Origin: Thermodesulfobacteriota bacterium
GTDB taxonomy: Bacteria > Desulfobacterota_D > UBA1144 > Nemesobacterales > CSP1-2
Direction of reading: 5' to 3'
Assembly (NCBI GenBank): GCA_035559815.1
Contig: DATMAT010000024.1
Coordinates: 1-35,453 of the forward strand
DNA: 35,453 nucleotides
Both the position numbers and the translations under genes were made by a program. The notes under the pieces were generated by a model, which was given only the letters and a program-made list of their open reading frames with translations, ran no database searches and was not told the origin of the DNA. The stretch's first letter is position 1; each line of letters begins with the position of its first letter. This document shows positions 9,046 to 31,369 of the stretch, piece after piece.

Positions 9046-10121
9046 TCAATCTGCTATCGAAGCTTTGGGATGGATATCGCCCGGCAATTGGTAATTATAT
9101 AAGGGAGAGACCGACTCTCCAGCCAGTGCAGATCTCTCCATTGCCTCGATTACCGCAAGACTGCGATATGCATCCTCAATGTCCGGATGAATGCCCGGGT
9201 TTCCCGATTTTGCTGCTGAAACAAATGAATTTGAAGCAAGCAGGAATGACGGTTCCCCCATAGGACGAATGACTCGTTTAAAGCCTGAGAGTATATAACT
9301 GAGCCCGGGTTTTATTTGTTCGACGCGGCCATATTCGTAAGTTGGCGCCGTTAACTTGAAATCGGCAGAATACCGGTCTAACAGGGGCTTCCCGGATTGA
9401 CCATAGATTTCAAGACGATCCTCATCTGCGGCGCTGAGTGAGAAGAAGGACTGCACCGGTAAGCCTCTAGCTAGTCGCATTTCTACTACAGCGCTGTCAT
9501 CTTCGCTCAGTTGCGACCACAACTTCACCGAGACCTCGATGATTTCTTCTTCAAAGAGAAAATAAATCATATGTACGTGATGAGAAGCCCGGTCAAGCAA
9601 TACGCCCCCTCCGCTTTGCCTAGTCCTTGTCCACAAGGGCAATTCACGCGCTGCCGAGGAAAAGACGGTTCGAACACAAGCTAAATTTCCCAGCCGTCCG
9701 GATTAAATATGCTTTTTTGTGGTCGTATGGAGCAGGCTGAAACGGTAATTAAATCCAATCATCCCAACTGTTCCGGCTTTTCCCAGGCTCTCAAAACTAG
9801 AAGAGCATCGGCAGTACCGTTAGCAATTAGCTTCTTCAGGTAAACGTGTTTACCGGCCTCGAAAGCAGCTATGGCGGACTGAGCTTGTAGAGCATGGGGA
9901 AGACAGATAATGATAGCTTCCATTTCCTTCATTTTTAGGAGGTGGTGATAATCATCAAAAATAGCCGCTTTTGGCGCAAGCCTTCTGGCTTCTTCCCGAC
10001 GTGTCGGGTCTGACTTGGCAATCCGGACAAATTCTGCTCCGGGGAAACCAGCCAAGTTGTTAAGATGCACTAACTGGGCGATGCGCCCAAAGCCAAGAAG
10101 TCCTATCCTTAGGACGGACAT
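9046..10121 (-). pseudogene. Decayed Gfo/Idh/MocA oxidoreductase with a frameshift and a nonsense codon
   Basis: Two reading-frame fragments together make one Gfo/Idh/MocA protein of about 358 residues. The first (from the ATG at 10121) has the Rossmann motif GFGRIA at 10-15 but runs to a stop at 9759. A single-base loss in the A-run read from 9778-9781 explains this: the next frame continues as AGTVGMIGFNYRF, the family's conserved segment. In that frame a TAA at 9703-9705 follows KKHI and is immediately followed by SGRLGNLACVRTVFSS, then GGGVLLDRASHHVH and a full C-terminal domain ending at 9046. The catalytic EKP motif has also become KKL (VYLKKLIA). Two disabling lesions plus loss of the active-site motif make a sequencing error an unlikely full explanation. 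Confidence 0.88.
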
Positions 10122-10339: not shown

Positions 10340-11401
10340 TTACCTACTATCGAGCCGAGGTTTTGTACGGCTCTCGGTCAAATTAGTCCACTTGGTATGA
10401 AGAGCGCCCCAGAGAAATCCCAGTTTATTGGAAATCTCGAATAAAAACATAAAGGGAAGATAAAGTATGAATTCGCCCGCTGTACTAGTTTGTCGAGCTC
10501 TCCAGAATGCATCCAGCATTACTGATAACTTTCCCTTAATTCCCAAAATAGCTAAATGGGATAATCCAACGGAACTATTTGAGTACTTATTGTAATAGTT
10601 CCAGCCATGGCGCCCGCTCATAAAACACTTATAGGCAGTAGAAAGAATGCCCTGGCTATACCGGTGTTTTATCTGATGGTAGGGATAATAATATACTGGC
10701 ACTCCCTTTTCACGGAGGCGCCTGGTCATGTCTGTATCCTCTCCCCTCATCAGGGATTCATCAAAAAATCCTACGATTCGGAAAACTTCCTTCCTGAAAG
10801 CGGCACCTCCAGCTGCTTCTAACTCATGTCGTGTGGTTATTCTTTCCTCAGTTACGGGAAGCCTTTGCCATCTTTTTTTCAAGGATGCCAGCCGGCTTTC
10901 CTCTGTAGTTTCTTCGACGTTCAGGCGCCTTCTCACACTGACGTCGTAATAGAAGTGGCATACTCTGCTAGCGAAATCATAATCAGCGGCTACGATTTTG
11001 AAACGCACAACCATGGCTGCCGGTTTTTCCCTAAAGAATCTGATTATAGTTTCTGCATAATCCGGCGCCAGGAGGTAGTCATCAGCCACGATCGCTACTA
11101 TATCTCCAGAGGAAGCGGCAATACCTCTGTTTCTCGCCGCCGGAATTCCCTTATGAGCTTGTCTGCAGTATCTTAAGCCCGGGTGCTTCTGGGAAATATC
11201 TTTGACGATAGCATCAGTACCATCTGTCGAGCCATCATCCACGACTATAATCTCTAGATCTTCGCTCCTGATTGTCTGCGAAAACAGGGAATCCAGGCAG
11301 TCAAGAAGTAAATCTTTACGGTTGTAAGTCAGTACGATGATGGATAAAAGCGCTGATTTTTCATATGTTGTTTTCGAATCTATTCTGGAGAAATTACCCA
11401 T
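10340..11401 (-). CDS. GT2 family glycosyltransferase
   Basis: This GT-A transferase has LLSIIVLTYNRKDLLLDC, IIVVDDGSTDGTD, an ADD variant of the DXD site (IVADDYLLAPDY) and LMRGEDTDMTRRL as the ED motif. The C terminus (FILYLPFMFLFEISNKLGFLWG) is hydrophobic and may bind the membrane. The start is uncertain. I use the ATG at 11401, which leaves about 18 residues before the first strand and has a weak GAGTGG upstream. A TTG at 11461, overlapping the stop of the preceding GT2 gene, would add 20 residues and is possible through translational coupling. It is the last gene before the pseudogene, with about 220 bp of AT-rich DNA between them. The donor sugar is unknown. Confidence 0.88.
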   Translation of the reverse strand: MGNFSRIDSKTTYEKSALLSIIVLTYNRKDLLLDCLDSLFSQTIRSEDLEIIVVDDGSTDGTDAIVKDISQKHPGLRYCRQAHKGIPAARNRGIAASSGDIVAIVADDYLLAPDYAETIIRFFREKPAAMVVRFKIVAADYDFASRVCHFYYDVSVRRRLNVEETTEESRLASLKKRWQRLPVTEERITTRHELEAAGGAAFRKEVFRIVGFFDESLMRGEDTDMTRRLREKGVPVYYYPYHQIKHRYSQGILSTAYKCFMSGRHGWNYYNKYSNSSVGLSHLAILGIKGKLSVMLDAFWRARQTSTAGEFILYLPFMFLFEISNKLGFLWGALHTKWTNLTESRTKPRLDSR

Positions 11402-11457
11402 CAGTACAGGCCACTCAAACTTGTCTATATTTGCACGATAAAGGCAGAGCGTTTGTA

Positions 11458-12324
11458 TCAATAGGGACTGATTTTACTGACCCTATCTCTTAGCTTCCAG
11501 TATTTCATGCTGAGGCGCCAAACGAGCCCGAGCAAGATTGCCAGGTAAGGATAGTCCTGCCTTATATCAAGTCTATGTGCTTCCTGGTCGGCAATAATAA
11601 GTTCCAAATTATGTTTTTTCCTTAAATAATACTCACCCTTGCTATACCATATTCTCTGCTTTATAAAACTAACCAGCGAATCCCGACAGTCGTAATGGGC
11701 GACGATATCATCGGATTTATAAATGTCGATCTTCTTTTCTCTGAAACGGAGGTAAAGGTCATAATCCTCTCTCGATGGAAGAGATTGGTCAAAGATGGGA
11801 TTTATTTTTTTTAAGAGCGTTCTCTTAATCGAAAAGTTGCCGGATGATAACCTATTTACTCTATAGAATTTGCAGCCTTTCCGGTTAAATGCAGCATTGT
11901 AGTTGTAGAACCAGAAGTTGGACAGATAACTGTCCCTCAGTTTTTTAAGATTGCCGTTGACCACCAAAGCCTCAGGGTGCTCTTTATGTACTCTAATAGT
12001 TTCCAGGACATAATTCGGTTCGAGTATGCAATCATCATCCAGAAAAACGATAATTTCGCCGGTACATCGACTCAATCCATAATTTCTGGCGAAGCTTGGC
12101 CCCCGGTTTCTCTCTAACCAAAAAAACTTGAGGAAAGAATACTCGTCTCTGTCCCAAAGATTCCGAATTCTGTCCACCACTGCCTGCTGGCTATGATCAT
12201 CGACGACCAATATTTCGACGCTATTTTCGAGAAGGTTCTTTCGGACTTGAGGAACCAAGGAATTCAATAAACTGGTCAGCTTGTCCGACCGGTTATAGGT
12301 GGGAATAACGATCGAAATCATCAT
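11458..12324 (-). CDS. GT2 family glycosyltransferase
   Basis: This is a 288-residue GT-A transferase. The start ATG at 12324 overlaps the upstream stop codon as ATGA and places the first residues (MMISIVIPTYNRSDKL) exactly at the first GT2 strand. The longer open frame further upstream lies inside the methyltransferase-DUF3048 gene and does not look like a GT2 N terminus. ILVVDDHS, FLDDDCILEPNY (DXD site) and LPSREDYDLYLRFREKKIDI (ED motif) are clear. The gene is probably translated by reinitiation after the upstream gene. Its stop is followed within a few bases by a possible TTG start of the next GT2. Function: transfer of one sugar of the repeat unit; donor and acceptor unknown. Confidence 0.9.
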   Translation of the reverse strand: MMISIVIPTYNRSDKLTSLLNSLVPQVRKNLLENSVEILVVDDHSQQAVVDRIRNLWDRDEYSFLKFFWLERNRGPSFARNYGLSRCTGEIIVFLDDDCILEPNYVLETIRVHKEHPEALVVNGNLKKLRDSYLSNFWFYNYNAAFNRKGCKFYRVNRLSSGNFSIKRTLLKKINPIFDQSLPSREDYDLYLRFREKKIDIYKSDDIVAHYDCRDSLVSFIKQRIWYSKGEYYLRKKHNLELIIADQEAHRLDIRQDYPYLAILLGLVWRLSMKYWKLRDRVSKISPY

Positions 12325-14348
12325 GAGTTCATCACACTGACTATGGCCTCTTCGGGAAGAGCGTAAATCCAGGTGAGTCCACGGCGCAGGATAAAGGGAT
12401 TCCCGAATATGTCTCGAAATTGAAGTGGGCCCCCGCTGTGGATTTTGTGCCAAGTGGCTTCCTCTGGATGAGGGCCACACCAGACCTGGGCTGGTCCTTC
12501 TCCACAAGTATTGATTCGCAATCTCCCTTTGACGTCTCCGGGTATTCTGGTGGTGGGAACCCAGACCAAAACCAAATTGGTGATGATGAGATTTGGGTCT
12601 CGTGTAGCGTCCTCACCCATAGGCGTATTTAGAACGGAGCGTCTAAATCCCTTTACTTTTTTGTCCCAGTCAAATTGTTCGGGATAGGGAGCTCCGGGAT
12701 GCGAATGAATTAGAACTCGGACTCCCTTAGAAATCTCCTCATTATGGGCGGGTTCATCGCGGAAGGAGGGCTGGAGTTCAGGGCAGTAATGGGATAGCGA
12801 ATCCGGGTCATTTATTCTTGATTCCTCAAGACTCTGGGGAAGATTAAGCTTAAGCTCATAGAGCTTGTCGAAGATCCTTCTCGGCAAGACAAATATATGG
12901 TGGGGAGGAGTTCTCCCGTCTTCTGTCACCAGTATGGGTGCATTCTGAATAACCTCAGGCTGCCCTGTTTCGTGCTGACGGTAGAGGCATTCGAGGTCTA
13001 TCACCTGCTCCGGATGTTCAAGACGGATCCGGGCCTCAGGACTTCCTCCACAGTGGACAAAGAATGGCTGGAAGGCTTCTGCCCAGTCTATAAAGTATGG
13101 ACGGGCACTCCGTACCGGTCCGACAACGCTATTAAAGTCTCGAGAAAAGACGGGCATAAGACGTGTCAAGCCTCCTTCGACGGGTGCCCCGATCACCAGT
13201 GATGCAGATGCTAATCCTCTTTGCGGATGCGAGCGACCCGAATTATCTAACATTACGGCCACTGGCCTACGTCCCCGATTCTCCTCAGAAACGGGCAATC
13301 CGCACCAGGGATCTGTTTCACCTTTATCGCTCACAACCTTGGCTTTCTTTGTTATTACCGATATGGATGCGCCGTGTGTTTCCGGGAGTATCCAGTCAAA
13401 CGCTGCGCTGAAGGCGAAGGTTTCAGGCAACCAGCGATCGGCAAGCCGGTGATATTCCATGAGTAAAAGGTATAAAGGCCGGTATAGCAAACGCGACTTG
13501 AGAGCCATTTTGCATCCGAGTAAGTAAAGACGAAGTGCCAAGGACTTTCGGCCAAGTTCGTTGTTGAACATCCAAAGAGCCGTCACCGGCTGGAGCAAGC
13601 TACTCTTGTTGACCGCGACTGTTTCGTTCTCCACAAAACCTTCACGCTGGAGCAAGAACTTAGTGTAGCGGAGCGAGCGAAGCCCGTGGTGCCCCACGGC
13701 ATCTACATGGTGGCGGGCATAGAGTTCTGGGAATTGTTTTGCCCAGCGAAGAATCGGTTTGGATGAGTCCAGGTCTGTGAAGAAGATCAAACGCCCTCCC
13801 GGCCGCAATATGCGCCGTACCTCGCGCAAAGTAGCGACAAATTGCCTTTCGGGAAGGTGCTCGAACAGCCATATACTAACCACCACGTCCGCAGAATTGT
13901 CGGCAAAAGGCAGCTTGTCCACCGATGAAAGGATGACTCGATCGTATAGAGATGCAGCGCTCTTCAGAGCTGCGGTACGGTAATCCACTCCGGTTACATG
14001 CCCAAAGCCGGTTAAAAACTCCCAGCCTCCTCCACAGCCCAGGTCGACGATTTGTAATGGGTAACGCCCGGGCCGTGCCAGCATCGGTCGTAAAAGGTGG
14101 GGTATGCCCCAGTGGGAATTTCTGCGTATAACCCATCCCCACGGCTCCCAGCCATTCCACTCACGGCATGGCGATATCCAACGGTTTTCATGGGAAAGAG
14201 CACTCGCTGTGAACCGGACAATTCCGTTTTCCACCGGCCACGGCCCATGACCGGCAATGCATGCTAGTGCTCCCTGGTCATCTTTCACATCAAATACTAT
14301 GACATCGTGACAATCGGGACAGACCAGGTCGTCTGTTTGAAATGGCAT
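12321..14348 (-). CDS. Fusion of a SAM methyltransferase and a DUF3048 (YerB-like) domain
   Basis: This 675-residue protein has two parts. Residues 1 to about 335 are a class I methyltransferase. They include a small Trm112-like zinc-binding start (CPDC at 10-13, further Cys at 30), SAM motif I VDLGCGGGWE at 101-110, WLFEHLP near 160-166 and ILRPGGRLIFF at 180-190. Residues from about 361 to the end match DUF3048: RPVAVMLDNSGRSHPQRGL, EGGLTRLMPVF, VGPVRSARPYF and HCGGSPEA, with a C-terminal GLTWIYALPEE. DUF3048 proteins such as Bacillus YerB are normally separate secreted lipoproteins, but no signal peptide or clear membrane helix separates the two parts here. The frame is open throughout and the gene couples through ATGA to the next GT2. 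The joint function is unknown; glycan methylation is an inference from context. Confidence 0.85.
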   Translation of the reverse strand: MPFQTDDLVCPDCHDVIVFDVKDDQGALACIAGHGPWPVENGIVRFTASALSHENRWISPCREWNGWEPWGWVIRRNSHWGIPHLLRPMLARPGRYPLQIVDLGCGGGWEFLTGFGHVTGVDYRTAALKSAASLYDRVILSSVDKLPFADNSADVVVSIWLFEHLPERQFVATLREVRRILRPGGRLIFFTDLDSSKPILRWAKQFPELYARHHVDAVGHHGLRSLRYTKFLLQREGFVENETVAVNKSSLLQPVTALWMFNNELGRKSLALRLYLLGCKMALKSRLLYRPLYLLLMEYHRLADRWLPETFAFSAAFDWILPETHGASISVITKKAKVVSDKGETDPWCGLPVSEENRGRRPVAVMLDNSGRSHPQRGLASASLVIGAPVEGGLTRLMPVFSRDFNSVVGPVRSARPYFIDWAEAFQPFFVHCGGSPEARIRLEHPEQVIDLECLYRQHETGQPEVIQNAPILVTEDGRTPPHHIFVLPRRIFDKLYELKLNLPQSLEESRINDPDSLSHYCPELQPSFRDEPAHNEEISKGVRVLIHSHPGAPYPEQFDWDKKVKGFRRSVLNTPMGEDATRDPNLIITNLVLVWVPTTRIPGDVKGRLRINTCGEGPAQVWCGPHPEEATWHKIHSGGPLQFRDIFGNPFILRRGLTWIYALPEEAIVSVMNS

Positions 14349-14380: not shown

Positions 14381-15139
14381 TTACTTTACTGCTCTGACCG
14401 CAATTAATACCTCATAGTCCGGGTCGATATAATCGAGTTCATTCTGGTCTAGCTCCTCTGCAGCTAGTCCGTGTAGTGAGGCAATTGCTGAGAGAACATT
14501 TCCATAAACTTCGATCTTGATATTTGTACTCGGAAAACATTCTTGAAATAGTAGATTTGCCGATTGGGTCGTCAGGCGCCAGTATTCTCCCCAAGGGTCA
14601 ATACCCTCACGTCTGCCTATCTTACTAATACCATGAGATGTTACCAAAAGAACTCCTCCTGGTTTCAGAATGCGCCGAAGGTGCTTTAGTGCTGCGCGAA
14701 TATCGTAGATCATTTGAAGAGTTTGGGTGCAGATAATGCAGTCAAAACTATCCGGGGCTATATCGTCGGCATTGGTTAAATCGGCTACGATAGTAGCCTC
14801 TGGGTTCCCTTCGACTAGATGAAGTACATCGCTCGTAGTAACCCGATCACCACCATATTTTTTTGTATAAAAACGGTCTCCCACCTCTAACACCCGTCCC
14901 CGTATGTCGGAGGCATTGGCAGATAGAAAGTGCTCGATGTAATAGCGATCTATGGGCAGGCCTCGATTTAATCCAAATATACGGCTTATGGGTGTCAACC
15001 GCCAAAGGTTATTCTGCTTTATGGCCCCTACTCGCGGCCACTGCAATCGGAATTTTTGTTGTTTTGCGCGCAACCAGTGACGCAGGTGGAATGGTAATAA
15101 GGCTGATGTGGTTGCTCTAATCCAGTCGTTAAGCAACAA
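14381..15139 (-). CDS. Class I SAM-dependent methyltransferase
   Basis: This 252-residue protein begins with a basic amphipathic stretch (residues 1-40) followed by a Methyltransf_11-type domain. Motif I is RGRVLEVGDRFYTKKYGG (81-97), a variant common in methyltransferases of polysaccharide loci, with FDCIICTQTLQMIYDI and LKPGGVLLVTSHG as later motifs. The frame has no early ATG; the first codons are TTG TTG, preceded by GAGAGGG, so a TTG start is likely. It sits 19 bp downstream of the CmoA-like gene and 32 bp upstream of the methyltransferase-DUF3048 fusion, so three SAM-dependent enzymes stand in a row. The likely role is O-methylation of a sugar or acyl group; the target is unknown. Confidence 0.85.
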   Translation of the reverse strand: MLLNDWIRATTSALLPFHLRHWLRAKQQKFRLQWPRVGAIKQNNLWRLTPISRIFGLNRGLPIDRYYIEHFLSANASDIRGRVLEVGDRFYTKKYGGDRVTTSDVLHLVEGNPEATIVADLTNADDIAPDSFDCIICTQTLQMIYDIRAALKHLRRILKPGGVLLVTSHGISKIGRREGIDPWGEYWRLTTQSANLLFQECFPSTNIKIEVYGNVLSAIASLHGLAAEELDQNELDYIDPDYEVLIAVRAVK

Positions 15140-15158: not shown

Positions 15159-15902
15159 CTATACTGGTTTCTTCACGCAGAGGAAACCGGCAAAGTTGTA
15201 CCATTGAAAGAAGGTCTCTACGATCTCAAAACCGTTTCGCCGAAAAAGGTCAAGATTCTCATCAATGCGGTATGGGACAAGCACGTTTTCCAGTGATTCA
15301 CGCTTTCGCATGATTTCATTTTCGGAGTAGCCATTACGCCTTTTGAAATCATAGTAAAAGTCTATGAAGAACCGATTCATGTGCGTTGTGTTTGTGAGTA
15401 TTTTCTCCGTTACCACCAGCACACCGTCTTCAACTAGCGAGCTGTAGATTTTCTTGATCAAATTGTCCCTTTTTAGAGGGCGGATAAATTGAAGAGTAAA
15501 GCACATAGTGATTACGCTTGCGTTTTCGATGGCTAGATTTGATAGGTCTGCATTTAAATCACCATATCGCACCTCAATTCTATTCTCCAAGCCGTTCTCC
15601 TTGATCTTATACTTTGCCTGTTCGAGCATAGGAATGGAGTTATCGTATCCGATGAAGAACCCCGGTCCCTCTATCTCTCGACACAGGTTTATAAGGGTTG
15701 TGGCGGTTGAGCATCCCAGGTCATAAACATTTGTATTTGGAATCCAGAACTTCTTGCCAATCTCTTTTATCATTAATTGTTGTTCGAGATAAAAAGGTAC
15801 ACTTCTGACGATCATATCATCGAACACATCGGCAACCTCGGTGTTAAACACAAAATCGCTGGCCCGTGCAGAACTTATGAGGAAAACTTGGTCTCTTTTC
15901 AT
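15159..15902 (-). CDS. cmoA: CmoA-like carboxy-SAM synthase homologue
   Basis: This 247-residue protein aligns along its whole length with the family of E. coli CmoA, which converts SAM and prephenate to carboxy-SAM (used by CmoB for tRNA wobble uridine modification). Shared blocks are VFDDMIVRSVPFY (CmoA VFPDMIQRSVPGY), VYDLGCSTATTL at 59-70 (SAM motif I), GYDNSIPML, FTLQFIRP, YYDFKRRNGYSENEI and KRESLENV. The Arg at residue 201 in this last block corresponds to E. coli Arg199, reported to contact the extra carboxylate. CmoB is absent, and the neighbours are an acyltransferase and methyltransferases, so a role in glycan or lipid tailoring is possible. A misplaced tRNA gene or a plain methyltransferase are alternatives. 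The gene has the best ribosome site in the window. Confidence 0.85.
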   Translation of the reverse strand: MKRDQVFLISSARASDFVFNTEVADVFDDMIVRSVPFYLEQQLMIKEIGKKFWIPNTNVYDLGCSTATTLINLCREIEGPGFFIGYDNSIPMLEQAKYKIKENGLENRIEVRYGDLNADLSNLAIENASVITMCFTLQFIRPLKRDNLIKKIYSSLVEDGVLVVTEKILTNTTHMNRFFIDFYYDFKRRNGYSENEIMRKRESLENVLVPYRIDENLDLFRRNGFEIVETFFQWYNFAGFLCVKKPV

Positions 15903-15922: not shown

Positions 15923-16870
15923 TTATGATAAGTTGTTAGGCACCTTGCCGACCAAGTGCCAATTTCTATACTGCTCGGGGTAAAGTTTTATATAAGTTTC
16001 CAACATACCTGCATATATAGAAACACAATTTTCCAAAGCACCTTTCCTATCTTTATCTATATCAGCATTAATTGGGTGTTCGATATTCAAGGTTGTCTTG
16101 CCACTTCCCTCCTTGATGCAGAATACAGGTAGAATGGGGGCTCCGGATAATTTTGACATACTGACCATACCGGTCGGGAAAAACTCGGTTTGACCGAGGA
16201 ATCTGAGGGGAATAAATTTATGTCCGCCCTTACCATCTCCACTGATACATACTATTCCGTTTTCTTTCAATAGACTTAAAAGAGTCCTGCTGAAGGCAAG
16301 AGAATTTGAACTGGGCAAGTAGATAATCCCTGCAACAATTTTCATTTCACAGTTTTCGAAAAAGGGTCTAATCATTGAGAGCTTAACCCTGGTTGCAGCG
16401 TTTTCATTCGTCAAAAATCCTCCTAGATCATTTGCACCATGCAACTGATATATGGAAAATCCTAGACCGTGTAGGATACGTTTAGCCAAAATTCTCTTCC
16501 CAAATCCGCTACTTTCCCATAATATGACACCCATTCCTTTTTCGAGGGCTTTGTGTAAATGCTCTATACCCTTAAGTTCCGCTTCTTTCACTGCAGAGAG
16601 GTCTTCCTTTGACGGTAACCAGGAAAGAATGTATAGCCAGAATTCACGGAAGGAAGCTTTAACGATTCCTTGTCGCTGTTCAGTGGTGAGACTCCTGCCG
16701 TAGGCTAATGAGATATTTTTTTCCATCAGTCTTCTCTTTGTTCTTGAAAATGTAAATGCAGTGGAGGCAAGGATGCTAGCTAATAATTCCCGTAATCTAT
16801 TTGAGGAAGACCAGCTAACTATTTTGATTAGAACAATTACAAATAGATGATAAAAATCTTTTACCGTCAT
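15923..16870 (-). CDS. LpxL/HtrB-type lysophospholipid acyltransferase homologue
   Basis: This 315-residue protein has a hydrophobic N terminus (residues about 5-40) and the layout of the lipid A acyltransferase family: RRLMEKNISLAYG, GVILWESSGFGKR near 112-126, ISGDGKGGHKFIPLRFLG, GAPILPVFCI and the closing YIKLYPEQYRNWH. The family transfers acyl chains from ACP or CoA to a glycolipid at the inner membrane face. The usual HxxxxE/D catalytic motif is not evident: where HFGNWE-like residues are expected the protein has WESSGFG. It may belong to a divergent branch with altered chemistry. It lies 21 bp after the acyl ligase gene and just upstream of the CmoA-like gene. With the ligase and ACP it forms a plausible acyl activation and transfer set. 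Confidence 0.82.
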   Translation of the reverse strand: MTVKDFYHLFVIVLIKIVSWSSSNRLRELLASILASTAFTFSRTKRRLMEKNISLAYGRSLTTEQRQGIVKASFREFWLYILSWLPSKEDLSAVKEAELKGIEHLHKALEKGMGVILWESSGFGKRILAKRILHGLGFSIYQLHGANDLGGFLTNENAATRVKLSMIRPFFENCEMKIVAGIIYLPSSNSLAFSRTLLSLLKENGIVCISGDGKGGHKFIPLRFLGQTEFFPTGMVSMSKLSGAPILPVFCIKEGSGKTTLNIEHPINADIDKDRKGALENCVSIYAGMLETYIKLYPEQYRNWHLVGKVPNNLS

Positions 16871-16891: not shown

Positions 16892-18370
16892 TTAGACCAG
16901 CATCTGTCTTCGGATTTTGCCCGTTGGACTCTTCGGGAGGCTATCCCTGAATTCAACCACGCTTGGGATCTTGAAATCAGCGATTTTTCCCCGGCAGTAC
17001 TCGACTATTTCACTCTCGGTGCAGGCGGAGTTGGAAACTATCACTGCCTTCACCTTTTCGTCTCCATAAGCGGTCGGGGAGCCGACCACCACTACCTCCT
17101 CTACTTTGGGATGGCCTTCCAGCAACTCCTCTATTTCCTGCGGGTTAATTTTGTAACCTCCTTTGTTGATGAAGAACTTCTTTCTGCCCACCAGGTAAAG
17201 AAGCCCGTCCTGCCCCCGCACCCCTAAATCTCCGGTGTAGAAATATCCGTTACGAAATACCTCTTTATTCACTTCGTCCAAGCCCTCATATCCTTTGATT
17301 GCCGCCGGGCTTTTCACAGCCAATTCTCCCATCTCGCCTGGATTGGCGACCCGCCCTTCGTCTGTGAATATCTCTACTTCTACCCCGAGAATAGGTGTAC
17401 CCACCGACTCTAATGATTCTTCCGCATTAGGACTTAAATTTACGCTTATTGTTCCAGTCTCGGTCGAGCCGTAAAGTTGTCTGACGTAAATTCCAAAATT
17501 CGCATAGAATTCCTGGTTGAGTTTTTTAGGCATGGGGGCGCTTGCGGAAACACAGAGACGAAGGGATGAAAAGTCTGGACGCCGGCGAAAATTGGCCTGG
17601 GCAAGTATGCTGAACATGAAGGGCACGGCGATAAATATGCTTATTTTATTCTTTTCTATCACATCGGCGACCGTCCTGCGCTCGAATTTAGGAACGGGAT
17701 AAAGGGTTGCCCCCGCCCTCATGCAGGCCATCATGGTGCGCATCAGTCCGTTTACGTGTGAGAATGGTGCTACACCTAGGAAGCGGTCTTCGTTGGTTAA
17801 GCTTAGGGTTTGAATGAGACTGTCGAGCTCAAAAATCAAATTGGCATGGGTACGGGCAATCTGCTTTGGCCTTCCGGTTGAACCGGATGAGAACTGGTAC
17901 ATTGCCGGAGTGTCCGGGTCAATTTCCATTCCAAACTGGGTAATCGACTCAGGCTCTCTTTGGGGCGTCGTCAGGTCATCCTCGACGAACAGTAATCTGC
18001 TTGGAGAATCTTGCATCGAGAGCACTTTACTACATAGCTTCTCGAAGTCTTTTGAAGTAACCACTACTGAAACGCCGCATACCTCGAGGAAATAAAGAAG
18101 CTCGTTTTCCTGGTAGTGGTCGTTCAGGGGAACGACGATTGCTCCCAGGGTGGAGATGGCGAAATAGCTCTTCACAAAGTCCAAGCTATTCGGCAGTAGC
18201 ATGGCCACACGGTCACCTTGACGAACTCCTATGCTTCGTAATTTCGCTGCCAGTGAGGCTATACTTTTTTCCAATTGGGAATAACTGACTGTTTTATTCC
18301 CCTCCACAACGGCTACTCGTCTGCTATTTTGTCTGGCGACGTCCGCAAACATCTCTGGCAGTGTTTTCAT
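16892..18370 (-). CDS. AMP-dependent acyl-CoA/acyl-ACP synthetase (ANL superfamily)
   Basis: This 492-residue enzyme should activate a carboxylic acid as an acyl-adenylate and load it on CoA or on a phosphopantetheine carrier. The core motifs are intact: SSGSTGRPK at 161-169 (phosphate-binding loop), YGSTE at 300-304, TGD at 379-381, GRKKFFINKGG at 395-405 (hinge) and the C-terminal lysine in SPTGK at 481-485. A strong ribosome site (AGGAGGAGGT, seven bases from the ATG) marks the start and it is the first gene after the 459-bp gap, so it may head a sub-operon. The ACP gene just upstream makes acyl-ACP formation likely, but acyl-CoA is equally possible. The acid cannot be predicted reliably. 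Confidence 0.92.
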   Translation of the reverse strand: MKTLPEMFADVARQNSRRVAVVEGNKTVSYSQLEKSIASLAAKLRSIGVRQGDRVAMLLPNSLDFVKSYFAISTLGAIVVPLNDHYQENELLYFLEVCGVSVVVTSKDFEKLCSKVLSMQDSPSRLLFVEDDLTTPQREPESITQFGMEIDPDTPAMYQFSSGSTGRPKQIARTHANLIFELDSLIQTLSLTNEDRFLGVAPFSHVNGLMRTMMACMRAGATLYPVPKFERRTVADVIEKNKISIFIAVPFMFSILAQANFRRRPDFSSLRLCVSASAPMPKKLNQEFYANFGIYVRQLYGSTETGTISVNLSPNAEESLESVGTPILGVEVEIFTDEGRVANPGEMGELAVKSPAAIKGYEGLDEVNKEVFRNGYFYTGDLGVRGQDGLLYLVGRKKFFINKGGYKINPQEIEELLEGHPKVEEVVVVGSPTAYGDEKVKAVIVSNSACTESEIVEYCRGKIADFKIPSVVEFRDSLPKSPTGKIRRQMLV

Positions 18371-22819: not shown

Positions 22820-24397
22820 TCATCTTTTCTGAAGTATGTGCAAAGGGAGAATTTTGGCCGAACCCGTGGAGTATGGCTCTCTCCGCAGTACGCGCAGGGT
22901 TTGTCCCTGTCGCCATTTGTCAGACATAATCTCTCCCCCGGGGTATCGGTGTAGAACCTGAAACGCTAAAGCTACTACTTCTTCTTCATTCACATTACCC
23001 ACACGCGGGCTCACAATAACGTTCACCCTGGGCAGTCCCCCATCCTCCTCTTCTAGTAACTGGTAGTCCGTGGGATAACCTCCAAATCTCGCCGGCAAGA
23101 CCTCCTCAACCAGTCGTAGCAGCTCGGTCCCGAGAAACGTCACTCCGTCGCTGGTCAACTTCTCGTAGCTACGAATGCGTGAAAGATGCTTGGTGAATCC
23201 GAGTTCTCCGAAAGGACAGCTGCACGTTCGGTCCTCAAGGACACCGTAATCGTCACTCTCTACGTTGAGCATAAGCTTAGGGCAACTGGGCAGGACGGTT
23301 GTATAGACCAGAGCTTCTACGGTGAGCCCACCGGCACCTACAGATTTAGGACGCTGTATCACCGCGACTTTGTCACTGAGCAGGTGGACATCATCAAGTT
23401 CCGGGGGTGCAGTGCAGGCGGTGCCGACCGTGCCGATTTCCGACATGGAGTAATGGCACACAGCTCGACATCCTGTATCGGCTAACACCTGGGCTTTTGC
23501 CGGGGTGTAAGGTTCGCCTCCCAGCCGGAAAAGGCTTCCGGAGATGTCCAGGCTGTTTTCTTTAGCGGCGAGGCAGACCCTCACCGCCGAGCTTGGATTA
23601 GTGTCCAGGGTGGCAGGCTTCCCATTCCCTTTCTTGAAAGATAGCCAATGTGCCACCTTGGAGGCTTCTTCCAGGGGCACGTATTCGGGCACGGGCAATT
23701 GTCTACCTAAAATTCTGCTTGTGTATAAGGTGTAGTTCGTGAAAATAGCAAATTTCAGGTCTTTCGGGCTTGATGATAATTTGCTCTGAGCAAACCACCT
23801 TTCCACAGACTTTCCCAGCCTAGCGTAGCGAAGGAGTAGCTTCATGCCTGCCGCTACCGGCGGGACCTCATGCCATGCCCCGATTGGCGTTTCCGCCAGG
23901 CCAAAGGCGGCCAAAATGTGATGAAAGTAAGCTGCCTCGTGGGTCAAAAGGTCGAAATCAATGATGATGCGTGTTCCTACGCCTCGCGAACCCCCGGTCC
24001 GGGCTTCGTAATGTTTTACTAAAAAGGGATTATCAAAATCCTTAGGGTGTACTATGATTTGTAGTCCTGGACGCTCGATTGAACGACGCCCTTTGAACTC
24101 GTTAAGTGTAACGTAAACTCCAGCATCGTAAAGCTTTACCAGTGCACCCTCTACGCCATATCGCCTCACCAACTCGACGACGTCGGCAAATTCAACTCCG
24201 GCATGAAGGAGCAGTTTTCGGTAAGGGCTTCCTGGATTGGCGTAAATGCCCCGTTCCAGGATACGCAAAAAAGACTCTTCTCTGGCGTCTAACTGACGGA
24301 CGAGCATACAGCGGCACTCTTCTGGGGTTAGCGTATGGCGGAGGTAACTGTTAAGCCCACGGGCATACCTGGCGAACATTCTCAGGTCGTTTAGCAT
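22820..24397 (-). CDS. PaaK/CapK-like adenylate-forming enzyme, copy 2
   Basis: This 525-residue protein belongs to the phenylacetate-CoA ligase/CapK branch of adenylate-forming enzymes. RTGGSRGVGTRI (133-144) stands for the phosphate-binding loop, YSMSEIGTVG (316-325) for the adenine/metal motif, CSCPFGELG (392-400) for the Cys-containing PaaK segment, RSYEKLTSDGVTF for the hinge and GSAKILPLH (512-520) for the C-terminal lysine region. The N-terminal 130 residues, with GVYVTLNEFKGR, are shared with the paralogue at 29735-31369 and are not part of classical PaaK as I know it. It lies 9 bp after the PhyH-type gene, so the dioxygenase may act on its product or substrate. The acid activated is unknown. 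Confidence 0.82.
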   Translation of the reverse strand: MLNDLRMFARYARGLNSYLRHTLTPEECRCMLVRQLDAREESFLRILERGIYANPGSPYRKLLLHAGVEFADVVELVRRYGVEGALVKLYDAGVYVTLNEFKGRRSIERPGLQIIVHPKDFDNPFLVKHYEARTGGSRGVGTRIIIDFDLLTHEAAYFHHILAAFGLAETPIGAWHEVPPVAAGMKLLLRYARLGKSVERWFAQSKLSSSPKDLKFAIFTNYTLYTSRILGRQLPVPEYVPLEEASKVAHWLSFKKGNGKPATLDTNPSSAVRVCLAAKENSLDISGSLFRLGGEPYTPAKAQVLADTGCRAVCHYSMSEIGTVGTACTAPPELDDVHLLSDKVAVIQRPKSVGAGGLTVEALVYTTVLPSCPKLMLNVESDDYGVLEDRTCSCPFGELGFTKHLSRIRSYEKLTSDGVTFLGTELLRLVEEVLPARFGGYPTDYQLLEEEDGGLPRVNVIVSPRVGNVNEEEVVALAFQVLHRYPGGEIMSDKWRQGQTLRVLRREPYSTGSAKILPLHILQKR

Positions 24398-24406
24398 CTA
24401 AGAGTC

Positions 24407-25399
24407 TCAATACATGAATTCTCTATTTAGCACCATTTTCCTCAAACGGGAGTCGCTATCGCGGGTCGGATATGTTTTCCGGGCCAGCAGCACCTCGCCA
24501 AAATCCGTCCTGCAGGGGGATACATAAGCGTACATCATAAGATAACGAGGTTTCACCGCATTCCGGCTTCCGTAATGAAAGCATTTGCTGTTGTCCAGGA
24601 ACAAAACGGACCCTGCAGGATAACAAAACTTAATTAACTCGCTTTCCGGGACAATCGAGTACATCTCCTCATCGGTCACGCGGTGACGTCTTCCTCTAGT
24701 CCGGTAATTGAGTGCTTCGGAGGCTTTCTTGGATACGGATTCAGGCAGGATGCAGAAGGGTCCATTTTCCATATTCCCCTCCCTGATCAGTACAAGAGCG
24801 TAGGCCATTGGGGAATCATGATAATCGAGATGAAATAGCTGGCTTGAACGAAATGGGACGTTCGGCGAGCTCTCGTGTTTAGCCCAAGATTCATTAAACC
24901 TGATCCCGGGGGGCAGAGCCGCTGAGAAAGTGGGGATGAAGCCCAGGTAATTACAGACGGTCGAGAGTATATCGGAGGAGGTGCCGAAGTCCAGGATGGA
25001 CGGATATTTGACCAATAGGTCGTCAATCGGAATTTCTTGGAAGTATGGCCTTCCGAAATCTGTCCGTTTTACGCCTCCGCGCTCTTTTATAATCTCCTCT
25101 GCGTCCTTCAGTAACTCTTGCAGGTGCGGTAGTTTTCCGGAGGTGTCTAGCGCCCAGCCGTCTTTTATTTCGTTGGGCGTAGAGACCGGCAACCCGTTCT
25201 CACGGATCAATTCGTCGAAATGATGGAGATACTGGTTTTTCCTAAATTCAAGATACCGGCCGTACTTAAGGCGGTTGTAAGCTCGGGCAACTTTCATGGT
25301 ATTGTTGACGCCCAAAGGTTGCATGGGTTTAGCGTCATAGTTGTATTGCAAAAACCTGACTATAGGTTTCATTGCGGTGTCGAGAATTTCACTCAGCAT
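24407..25399 (-). CDS. PhyH-type Fe(II)/2-oxoglutarate-dependent dioxygenase
   Basis: This 330-residue protein matches the phytanoyl-CoA dioxygenase family. The facial triad is visible as H190-x-D192 (QLFHLDYHD) and H275 (KCFHYGSRN), with R285 (KPRYLMM) as the likely 2-oxoglutarate carboxylate ligand. The family hydroxylates unactivated carbons, often on CoA- or carrier-bound acids or amino acids. A strong ribosome site (GAGGGAGGT, seven bases away) fixes the start. About 210 bp of AT-rich DNA with a possible promoter precede it, so it may head the block PhyH, PaaK-like, three GT4 and ACP. Hydroxylation of the acyl group carried by this module is an inference. Confidence 0.85.
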   Translation of the reverse strand: MLSEILDTAMKPIVRFLQYNYDAKPMQPLGVNNTMKVARAYNRLKYGRYLEFRKNQYLHHFDELIRENGLPVSTPNEIKDGWALDTSGKLPHLQELLKDAEEIIKERGGVKRTDFGRPYFQEIPIDDLLVKYPSILDFGTSSDILSTVCNYLGFIPTFSAALPPGIRFNESWAKHESSPNVPFRSSQLFHLDYHDSPMAYALVLIREGNMENGPFCILPESVSKKASEALNYRTRGRRHRVTDEEMYSIVPESELIKFCYPAGSVLFLDNSKCFHYGSRNAVKPRYLMMYAYVSPCRTDFGEVLLARKTYPTRDSDSRLRKMVLNREFMY

Positions 25400-29734: not shown

Positions 29735-31369
29735 TTACCTACTTTTGTTTATTGACTGCCCAAGATGCAAATGAAGAATCTTGCCGGAACGGGTAGTAAA
29801 AGGGGCTTGGCGCTCTACACGGAGTAGACTGGCATCGCGCCACATGAACTCCATCATTCTTTCTACTGGAGATCCGGAGCCAATAGTGCTGAGAAAGACT
29901 TCTGATAAAGCATTGGTATCAAGCGGCCCGAGTTTTGGATGCACGAGTAACCGCAGAATGGGCTGGCCATCTTCAGTCTCATCTTCTAGGAGTTGGTAAT
30001 CTGTGGCTGACCCGCCAAAGCGGGCCGGCAAATCCTCTTCGAGAATGCGGATTACATCCGTATCCAAAAAGGTCATCCCTCCTCCGGTAAGCTTTTCGTA
30101 ACTGCGTATGTTGTGCAGGTGCGTAGTCCAACCAAGTTCCTCCAGCGCACAGCCACATTTCCGTCTGGAAATAACAGCTTGGTCGCCCATAGAGACATTA
30201 AGCAGGGTAAAAGGCGATGCGGGATGGAGTGACGTAATTAGGAGAGCATTTTGAGGTAGTCTGGGGAGCGTTTCATCTGATTCCGGTTGAATGAGCGCAT
30301 GGAGGTCGTGTAGTAAATGAACATCGTCAGAGGCTGCCGGGGCAAGGCAGCCGTAGCCAATGGGTCCGCACTCCATACTCCCATAACGGGGCAGAGCCTC
30401 GGCACCGGCACGGCGTATTACATCTAGGCGGGCACTTGTAATGGGCTCTCCCGCTAATAGGAACTGGGCATCTCGGAGTTCAATTCCGTTTTCCAATGCC
30501 GCCAGGCAAAGACGCACTGCAGAGCTGGGGAATGTAAAAAGATGAGGGGTGTCGCCAGACTGTAAAACCTCGGTCATCCATTTAGCTATAGGAAGCGGGT
30601 CACCAAGAGAGACGTATAATGGGCGCGGCAAGGGAACACCAGCTAGCCGGCTTCCCCATCTCATAGCACGTTCGCTCCAACGGAAGATAGAGTCCAGCCC
30701 GGGTGCAGCCGGGTCTACCTGTGAGAACCAGCGAACCGGCGGATTACCGAAGCTGCTAAACTTGAGAAGCCGGAACCTAGCCCCAGCACCGGGGGTTTCC
30801 CAGGTCGCTTTATGCCACTTGGACCCTCCCCTTGCTTCGAGGAATAGGGAGGTATTAACACCACAGCCCTTGACGAAATCCAGGTCAATAAGTACAGGTG
30901 TCCCCGAACTCCGACTTCCGCCGCTTCGGGCGGGGATGTGAAAGACCGCGAGCGGGTTACGTAGTAGTTCATGGCCTAGAGATATCGTTGTGCTTCCCCT
31001 TATAGCTGGCTGTCGACCCTTGAACTCATCGACGGTGAGGTATACTCCTTGACGATAAAGCATTTGAAGGGCCGCCTCAATACCTTCTTTTTTTACCGAC
31101 TCTTCTAAGTCTCCGTATTCGCAGCCGGCTAGCTTTAAAAGTTGCCGGTATGGGCTTTCCGGGTACTCATAGACAGACTGTTTAAGAGTGGCCAAGAAGG
31201 AATTCTCTCTCTGCTCAAAGCGACGGCGCAGGATAGCTCTCGCTTCCTGTAGACCGATTTTGTGATGGAGGAACGAAGGGAGCTTGCTTAGAAAACGGGC
31301 TCCGATTATCACATTATCAAATGAACTCCAGGAACTAGGGCTTTTGGTTATGGACTGGTGCTGGTTCAT
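29735..31369 (-). CDS. PaaK/CapK-like adenylate-forming enzyme, copy 1
   Basis: This 544-residue paralogue of the protein at 22820-24397 has the same parts in order: GVYLTVDEFKGR near 108-119, RSGGSRSSGTPV (148-159) as phosphate loop, LAGEPIT, YGSMECGPIG, the Cys pair in KCGCALEELG, RSYEKLTGGGMTF and SGKILHLH with a lysine near residue 530. The two are clearly related but well diverged, so they probably activate different acids or serve different carriers. The family makes acyl-adenylates and usually CoA thioesters; CapK-type members occur in capsule loci with poorly known roles. It stands between the VOC-like gene and the deacetylase. No carrier protein is adjacent to this copy. Confidence 0.82.
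   Translation of the reverse strand: MNQHQSITKSPSSWSSFDNVIIGARFLSKLPSFLHHKIGLQEARAILRRRFEQRENSFLATLKQSVYEYPESPYRQLLKLAGCEYGDLEESVKKEGIEAALQMLYRQGVYLTVDEFKGRQPAIRGSTTISLGHELLRNPLAVFHIPARSGGSRSSGTPVLIDLDFVKGCGVNTSLFLEARGGSKWHKATWETPGAGARFRLLKFSSFGNPPVRWFSQVDPAAPGLDSIFRWSERAMRWGSRLAGVPLPRPLYVSLGDPLPIAKWMTEVLQSGDTPHLFTFPSSAVRLCLAALENGIELRDAQFLLAGEPITSARLDVIRRAGAEALPRYGSMECGPIGYGCLAPAASDDVHLLHDLHALIQPESDETLPRLPQNALLITSLHPASPFTLLNVSMGDQAVISRRKCGCALEELGWTTHLHNIRSYEKLTGGGMTFLDTDVIRILEEDLPARFGGSATDYQLLEDETEDGQPILRLLVHPKLGPLDTNALSEVFLSTIGSGSPVERMMEFMWRDASLLRVERQAPFTTRSGKILHLHLGQSINKSR

Follow-up and report, generated by a model that had tools for sequence, protein, structure and literature searches.

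A methyltransferase of cytoplasmic type and a complete YerB-like DUF3048 domain are joined here in one protein of 675 amino acids, and the gene that encodes it appears, from its sequence, to be genuine. The architecture is exceptional. We think it about an even bet that this is a lineage-specific fusion in a glycan or glycolipid operon, in which a cytoplasmic glycan-tailoring methyltransferase has been extended by a horizontally acquired, signal-less YerB-like accessory domain; that reading builds on what is observed of the frame, both domains, the absent export signals, the operon context, the divergence of the second half and the residues it has lost. The window is the whole of a 35,453-base contig, in a genome assembly of 79 contigs. 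An earlier note on this DNA had described the fusion and had proposed that it might help to reveal what DUF3048 does. Its description holds in almost all particulars, while its inference about the domain finds only partial support. How did such a protein arise, and how much can it tell us about its family?

The Fusion Gene

Read on the minus strand, the gene runs from an ATG at 14348 to a TGA at 12323–12321, uninterrupted by a stop, and the methyltransferase is followed in the same frame by a full DUF3048 region, with every Pfam domain over its curated cut-off.

12321 to 14348, minus strand: fusion gene, methyltransferase plus DUF3048, 675 amino acids (single open frame; Pfam)
13335 to 14348, minus strand: methyltransferase half, residues 1–338 (Pfam Methyltransf_11; motif I)
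14247 to 14321, minus strand: possible zinc-ribbon start, C10-x2-C13 ... C30-x3-H34 (sequence pattern)
13302 to 13334, minus strand: short linker, residues 339–349, without signal peptide, lipobox or transmembrane helix (hydropathy; other-frame check; codon-position composition)
12873 to 13301, minus strand: DUF3048 N-terminal domain, residues 350–492 (Pfam PF11258; EGGLTR and GPVRSAR motifs present)
12366 to 12680, minus strand: DUF3048 C-terminal domain, residues 557–661 (Pfam PF17479, E 1.7e-10)

By its motifs, the first half is a predicted class I SAM methyltransferase with a Rossmann SAM-binding domain. Its Methyltransf_11 (PF08241) core, residues 101–189 (13782–14048), scores 64.4 bits against a cut-off of 21.2 (E 1.6e-17); SAM motif I can be read off directly as VDLGCGGGWEF; and the half ends in GASISVITKK, which reads like the final strand of a class I methyltransferase. 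A zinc-binding start had also been suggested, and the C10–C13 and C30–H34 pairs are indeed present in the sequence, but the Pfam scan of the protein gave no match to the Trm112 family. Among 100 relatives sampled, there was no close full-length homologue of this half.

The second half matches PF11258 with 110.2 bits (E 1.3e-31) and PF17479 (DUF3048_C) with 41.7 bits, each against a curated cut-off of 25. A profile of 21 DUF3048 domains, the fusion's among them, covers residues 15–302 of Bacillus subtilis YerB (PDB 2psb), so that the C-terminal half amounts to a whole YerB-like unit; its limits, which we place at residues 350–665, lie close to the 361–668 proposed earlier. The fusion thus has in common with the YerB/DUF3048 lipoproteins the complete two-part domain (PF11258 plus PF17479) and the motifs EGGxTR, GPVRSxR, VHxGGS, PH and the C-terminal W residues. 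It differs from them in having no signal peptide, lipobox or transmembrane anchor, in sitting behind a methyltransferase, in being only about 30% identical at best and in having lost several near-invariant residues. A structure prediction for the whole protein, made from a three-row alignment, gave no usable model (mean pLDDT 31, pTM 0.22).

Could two separate genes have been joined in silico, by an assembly or frame error? Two facts speak for an error: the assembly consists of 79 contigs, and apparent frameshifts occur in a gene close by. After a frame error, however, the missing signal peptide or linker should persist in one of the other frames, and a search for such a hidden signal peptide found none within about 200–350 bases of the junction. 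The junction peptide is ITKKAKVVSDKGETDPWCGLPVSEENRGRRPVAV; the DUF3048 half opens at the usual family start, DPWCGLPVSEENRGRRPVAV, and the family boundary GLPV...RRPVAV is the exact beginning of the domain in the fusion. With the domain beginning at GLPV and the usual export signal absent, a simple frame error is unlikely, and it is improbable that a chimera would happen to fall in frame at the two domain boundaries. Codon-position base composition is unbroken across the junction. The contig as a whole matches its genome: its tetranucleotide profile has a median correlation of 0.73 with 19 other stretches, near the top of the 0.55–0.74 range and as good a match as the genome gives with itself, which rules out a misbinned contig. 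We therefore regard an in silico join as very improbable. The view that the protein carries no signal peptide or membrane helix likewise stands, for no typical hydrophobic segment occurs anywhere in it (the highest 19-residue Kyte–Doolittle mean is 1.11, with 0.75 at the N terminus).

The Gene Cluster

The fusion lies in a run of genes from 18370 to 10340, all on the minus strand and separated by gaps of at most 32 bases. In the order of the run, with the fusion between the second methyltransferase and the first GT2 gene, its neighbors are the following.

16892 to 18370, minus strand: acyl-CoA ligase (Pfam PF00501, E 3.5e-84)
15923 to 16870, minus strand: LpxL/HtrB-like acyltransferase (Pfam PF03279, E 4.3e-16)
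15159 to 15902, minus strand: CmoA-like carboxy-SAM synthase (TIGR00740, 238.9 bits against a cut-off of 193.3)
14381 to 15139, minus strand: second methyltransferase, directly upstream of the fusion (Pfam Methyltransf_11, E 2.9e-9)
12321 to 12324, minus strand: ATGA overlap of fusion stop and GT2 start (sequence)
11458 to 12324, minus strand: GT2 glycosyltransferase coupled to the fusion (Pfam PF00535, E 2.8e-25; start revised to 12324)
10340 to 11461, minus strand: second GT2 glycosyltransferase, with a 4-base overlap with the first (Pfam PF00535, E 1.1e-31)

The overlap between fusion and GT2 reads ...AACTCATGATG..., the ATG of the GT2 gene at 12324 sharing four bases with the fusion's stop, which bears out the proposed translational coupling. 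Elsewhere on the contig are three GT4 genes, a Wzx-type flippase, a NodZ-like transferase, a deacetylase and a sulfatase. Judged by these gene contents, the fusion belongs to a polysaccharide, glycan or glycolipid biosynthesis cluster that is clearly glycan-related, and it has the core domain, SAM motif and type of gene neighborhood of the Methyltransf_11 enzymes of surface-polysaccharide clusters, from which it differs in its additional 325-residue C-terminal DUF3048. Within the cluster, three long open reading frames of 525, 330 and 544 amino acids (22820–25399 and 29735–31369, minus strand) have no Pfam match. A Gfo/Idh/MocA oxidoreductase gene at 9046–10121 (minus strand) is broken into an N-terminal piece at 9759–10121 and a C-terminal piece at 9046–9642 in different frames, and reflects either a pseudogene in decay or sequence errors on the contig.

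The CmoA-like gene, two genes upstream of the fusion, raises a different idea of the chemistry. It is the genome's only CmoA homologue, and no CmoB (TIGR00452) exceeds the cut-off in the whole genome (the best match has 45 bits against 275); the fusion protein is absent from the six weak CmoB matches. A sole CmoA with no CmoB over the cut-off means that carboxy-SAM may serve something other than tRNA, and there is a precedent in a phage CmoA that, without CmoB, supplies a DNA carboxymethyltransferase (PMC12783734). The methyltransferase half might then use CmoA-made carboxy-SAM to carboxymethylate a glycan or lipid, with the core arginines of the DUF3048 half helping to bind the acidic product. 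In favor, the run of genes that contains the fusion also includes a CmoA homologue scoring above the cut-off of its family, and this homologue retains the equivalent of Arg199, the carboxylate-binding residue; in Escherichia coli CmoA, an arginine contacts the carboxyl group (PMC3663124). Against it, the SAM-binding Asn132 of E. coli CmoA is replaced by Cys, no carboxy-SAM-binding residue was found in the fusion, proximity is the fusion's sole tie to carboxy-SAM, and the second methyltransferase (14381–15139) is an equally good recipient. We consider this route improbable. A broader version, and a long shot, is that the CmoA-like enzyme, with no CmoB, feeds carboxy-SAM to either the fusion or its neighbor, that a glycan or lipid-linked intermediate is carboxymethylated and that the YerB-like domain was recruited to bind the acidic product; if true, carboxy-SAM would have a use beyond nucleic acids, and DUF3048 would have a cytoplasmic role.

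DUF3048 in Other Genomes

The source genome has one copy of DUF3048, and none of 57 other genomes of its phylum has any. The domain is common elsewhere: in a Patescibacteria-like phylum with genomes of about 1 Mb, with which a named Peregrinibacteria protein groups in the tree, it occurs in 232 of 332 genomes, and in five further phyla it is present in 30/40, 30/43, 105/181, 174/398 and 46/50. In the first of these, the phylum of genome G116, the roughly 70% of sampled genomes that have DUF3048 usually carry one membrane-anchored copy, and DUF3048 is there a near-core protein of small-genome bacteria.

Per-phylum surveys and one broad sample together covered about 618 other DUF3048-bearing genomes, and among the proteins inspected from them there was no second methyltransferase fusion. 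Of the 145 DUF3048 open reading frames that we read individually, 137 were not cut at the 5' end, and 132 of these have a strong hydrophobic segment ahead of the domain, in agreement with the usual picture of DUF3048 as secreted; among the other five, three show segments that resemble a signal less strongly, a lipobox being present in two of the three, and the remaining two are apparently truncated or misaligned. The same two-domain architecture, for which the earlier note had wished to see a search, was not found again among the proteins inspected, and what the note had named as grounds for refutation—homologues that stand as genes of their own and carry a signal peptide—describes nearly every relative inspected. 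On the evidence above, the gene still appears to be real; it has no export signals and sits in a polysaccharide/glycolipid cluster. With the relatives nearly all separate and signal bearing, we have a lineage-specific fusion and not a conserved architecture.

The largest DUF3048 frames, examined by Pfam or by direct reading, were rejected as methyltransferase fusions, since they have extracellular-type partners (PEGA, FG-GAP, SdrD_B or FecR), nothing recognized or stop-to-stop frames that extend beyond the true start. The longest in the phylum of genome G383 (649) proved to be a lipoprotein, its stop-to-stop frame reaching past the start of the gene. The proteins L170, L171, L174 and L178 show how varied the family's extracellular architectures are: all are large and exported, and they combine DUF3048 with FG-GAP, with SdrD_B/FecR or with four repeats of PEGA. 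In such proteins, as in the fusion, DUF3048 is a module of something longer; their partners are extracellular-type domains, whereas the partner in the fusion is a cytoplasmic enzyme.

The surroundings of DUF3048 elsewhere offer little in common with those seen here. Across 20 other loci (99 neighbor proteins), there is no enrichment of glycosyltransferases and no common partner gene, the commonest neighbor being a PitA-type phosphate transporter (3 of the 20). The placement of DUF3048 in glycan biosynthesis thus holds for the fusion's own cluster but does not extend to these loci. A literature search on DUF3048/YerB found no function; in the papers, YerB figures only as a putative lipoprotein whose role is unknown and which is linked to lists of sporulation genes.

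State of the DUF3048 Half

The fusion's DUF3048 is far from all of its relatives, the nearest of which reach only about 30% identity. A search of genome contigs for homologues gave as its sole close match a Peregrinibacteria DUF3048 protein (29%), viral contigs held no close homologue of the fusion and plasmids yielded single-domain matches only. In a tree of 111 DUF3048 domains, the fusion's copy has the longest end branch, at 2.42 changes per site, and because of that long branch it has no supported position. It was probably acquired horizontally.

Of 71 conserved DUF3048 positions, the fusion retains 47 (66%, where the median of relatives is 83%), including A382, E391, R396, G410-P411, R413-S414, R416, H432, H483, R570, D580, G618, W633 and W660. 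Most of the residues conserved at 97–100% are kept (A382, E391, R396, G410, P411, R413, S414, R416, D580, G618 and W633), and R396, G410, R413, S414, R416, G618 and W633 are 99–100% conserved in the family. Missing are R374, E387, R475, N484 and G626, each conserved in 88–99% of other relatives. The retained core counts against pure decay, and the lost near-invariant residues count against an unchanged ancestral function.

With its long branch and its losses, the DUF3048 half could be decaying, and our main rival explanation holds that it is a passenger without function, a fragment gained by horizontal transfer that drifts on a working methyltransferase. Its branch is the longest in the tree, residues found in 88–99% of relatives are gone, the fusion was seen in no other genome surveyed and a neighboring gene is broken. 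The open frame of this part, however, spans about 325 codons without a stop or frameshift, and retention of most of the 97–100% conserved residues is not expected after drift over 2.4 changes per site. A passenger is unlikely in our judgment, while still deserving to be taken seriously. The opposite extreme is that the two halves form one enzyme, in which DUF3048 would catalyze its ancestral reaction on a cytoplasmic glycan intermediate, and the fusion would reveal the family's function. The retained arginine, histidine and glutamate core and the glycan operon suit this idea, but near-invariant residues are lost, and the relatives are exported or anchored and, in the 20 sampled loci, outside glycan operons; we find it quite improbable.

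Discussion

The reading that we prefer is the accessory-domain fusion. A cytoplasmic SAM-dependent methyltransferase would tailor, by methylation, a glycan or lipid-linked intermediate, and at its C terminus it would have gained by horizontal transfer a DUF3048 domain stripped of its export signal. The methyltransferase half would perform the chemistry; the DUF3048 half would be a cytoplasmic accessory domain that binds or positions either the glycan or the translationally coupled partner GT2, presumably through its retained charged core (E391, R396, GPVRSAR, H432 and H483). Since the fusion is a single known instance, there is no conservation to show that selection maintains it.

The hope that the fusion would serve as a guide to the function of the family has not fared well. 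It is the sole DUF3048 in its phylum, the most divergent in the tree and short of near-invariant residues; as a single, highly diverged case it is a weak clue to DUF3048 function and weak evidence on what the domain normally does. Its use may lie elsewhere. DUF3048 is widespread: about 70% of the genomes sampled from the Patescibacteria-like phylum have it, as do 44% of those from the phylum of G383, and this cytoplasmic, enzyme-fused copy may offer a soluble construct for testing the binding of ligands by the conserved arginine core.
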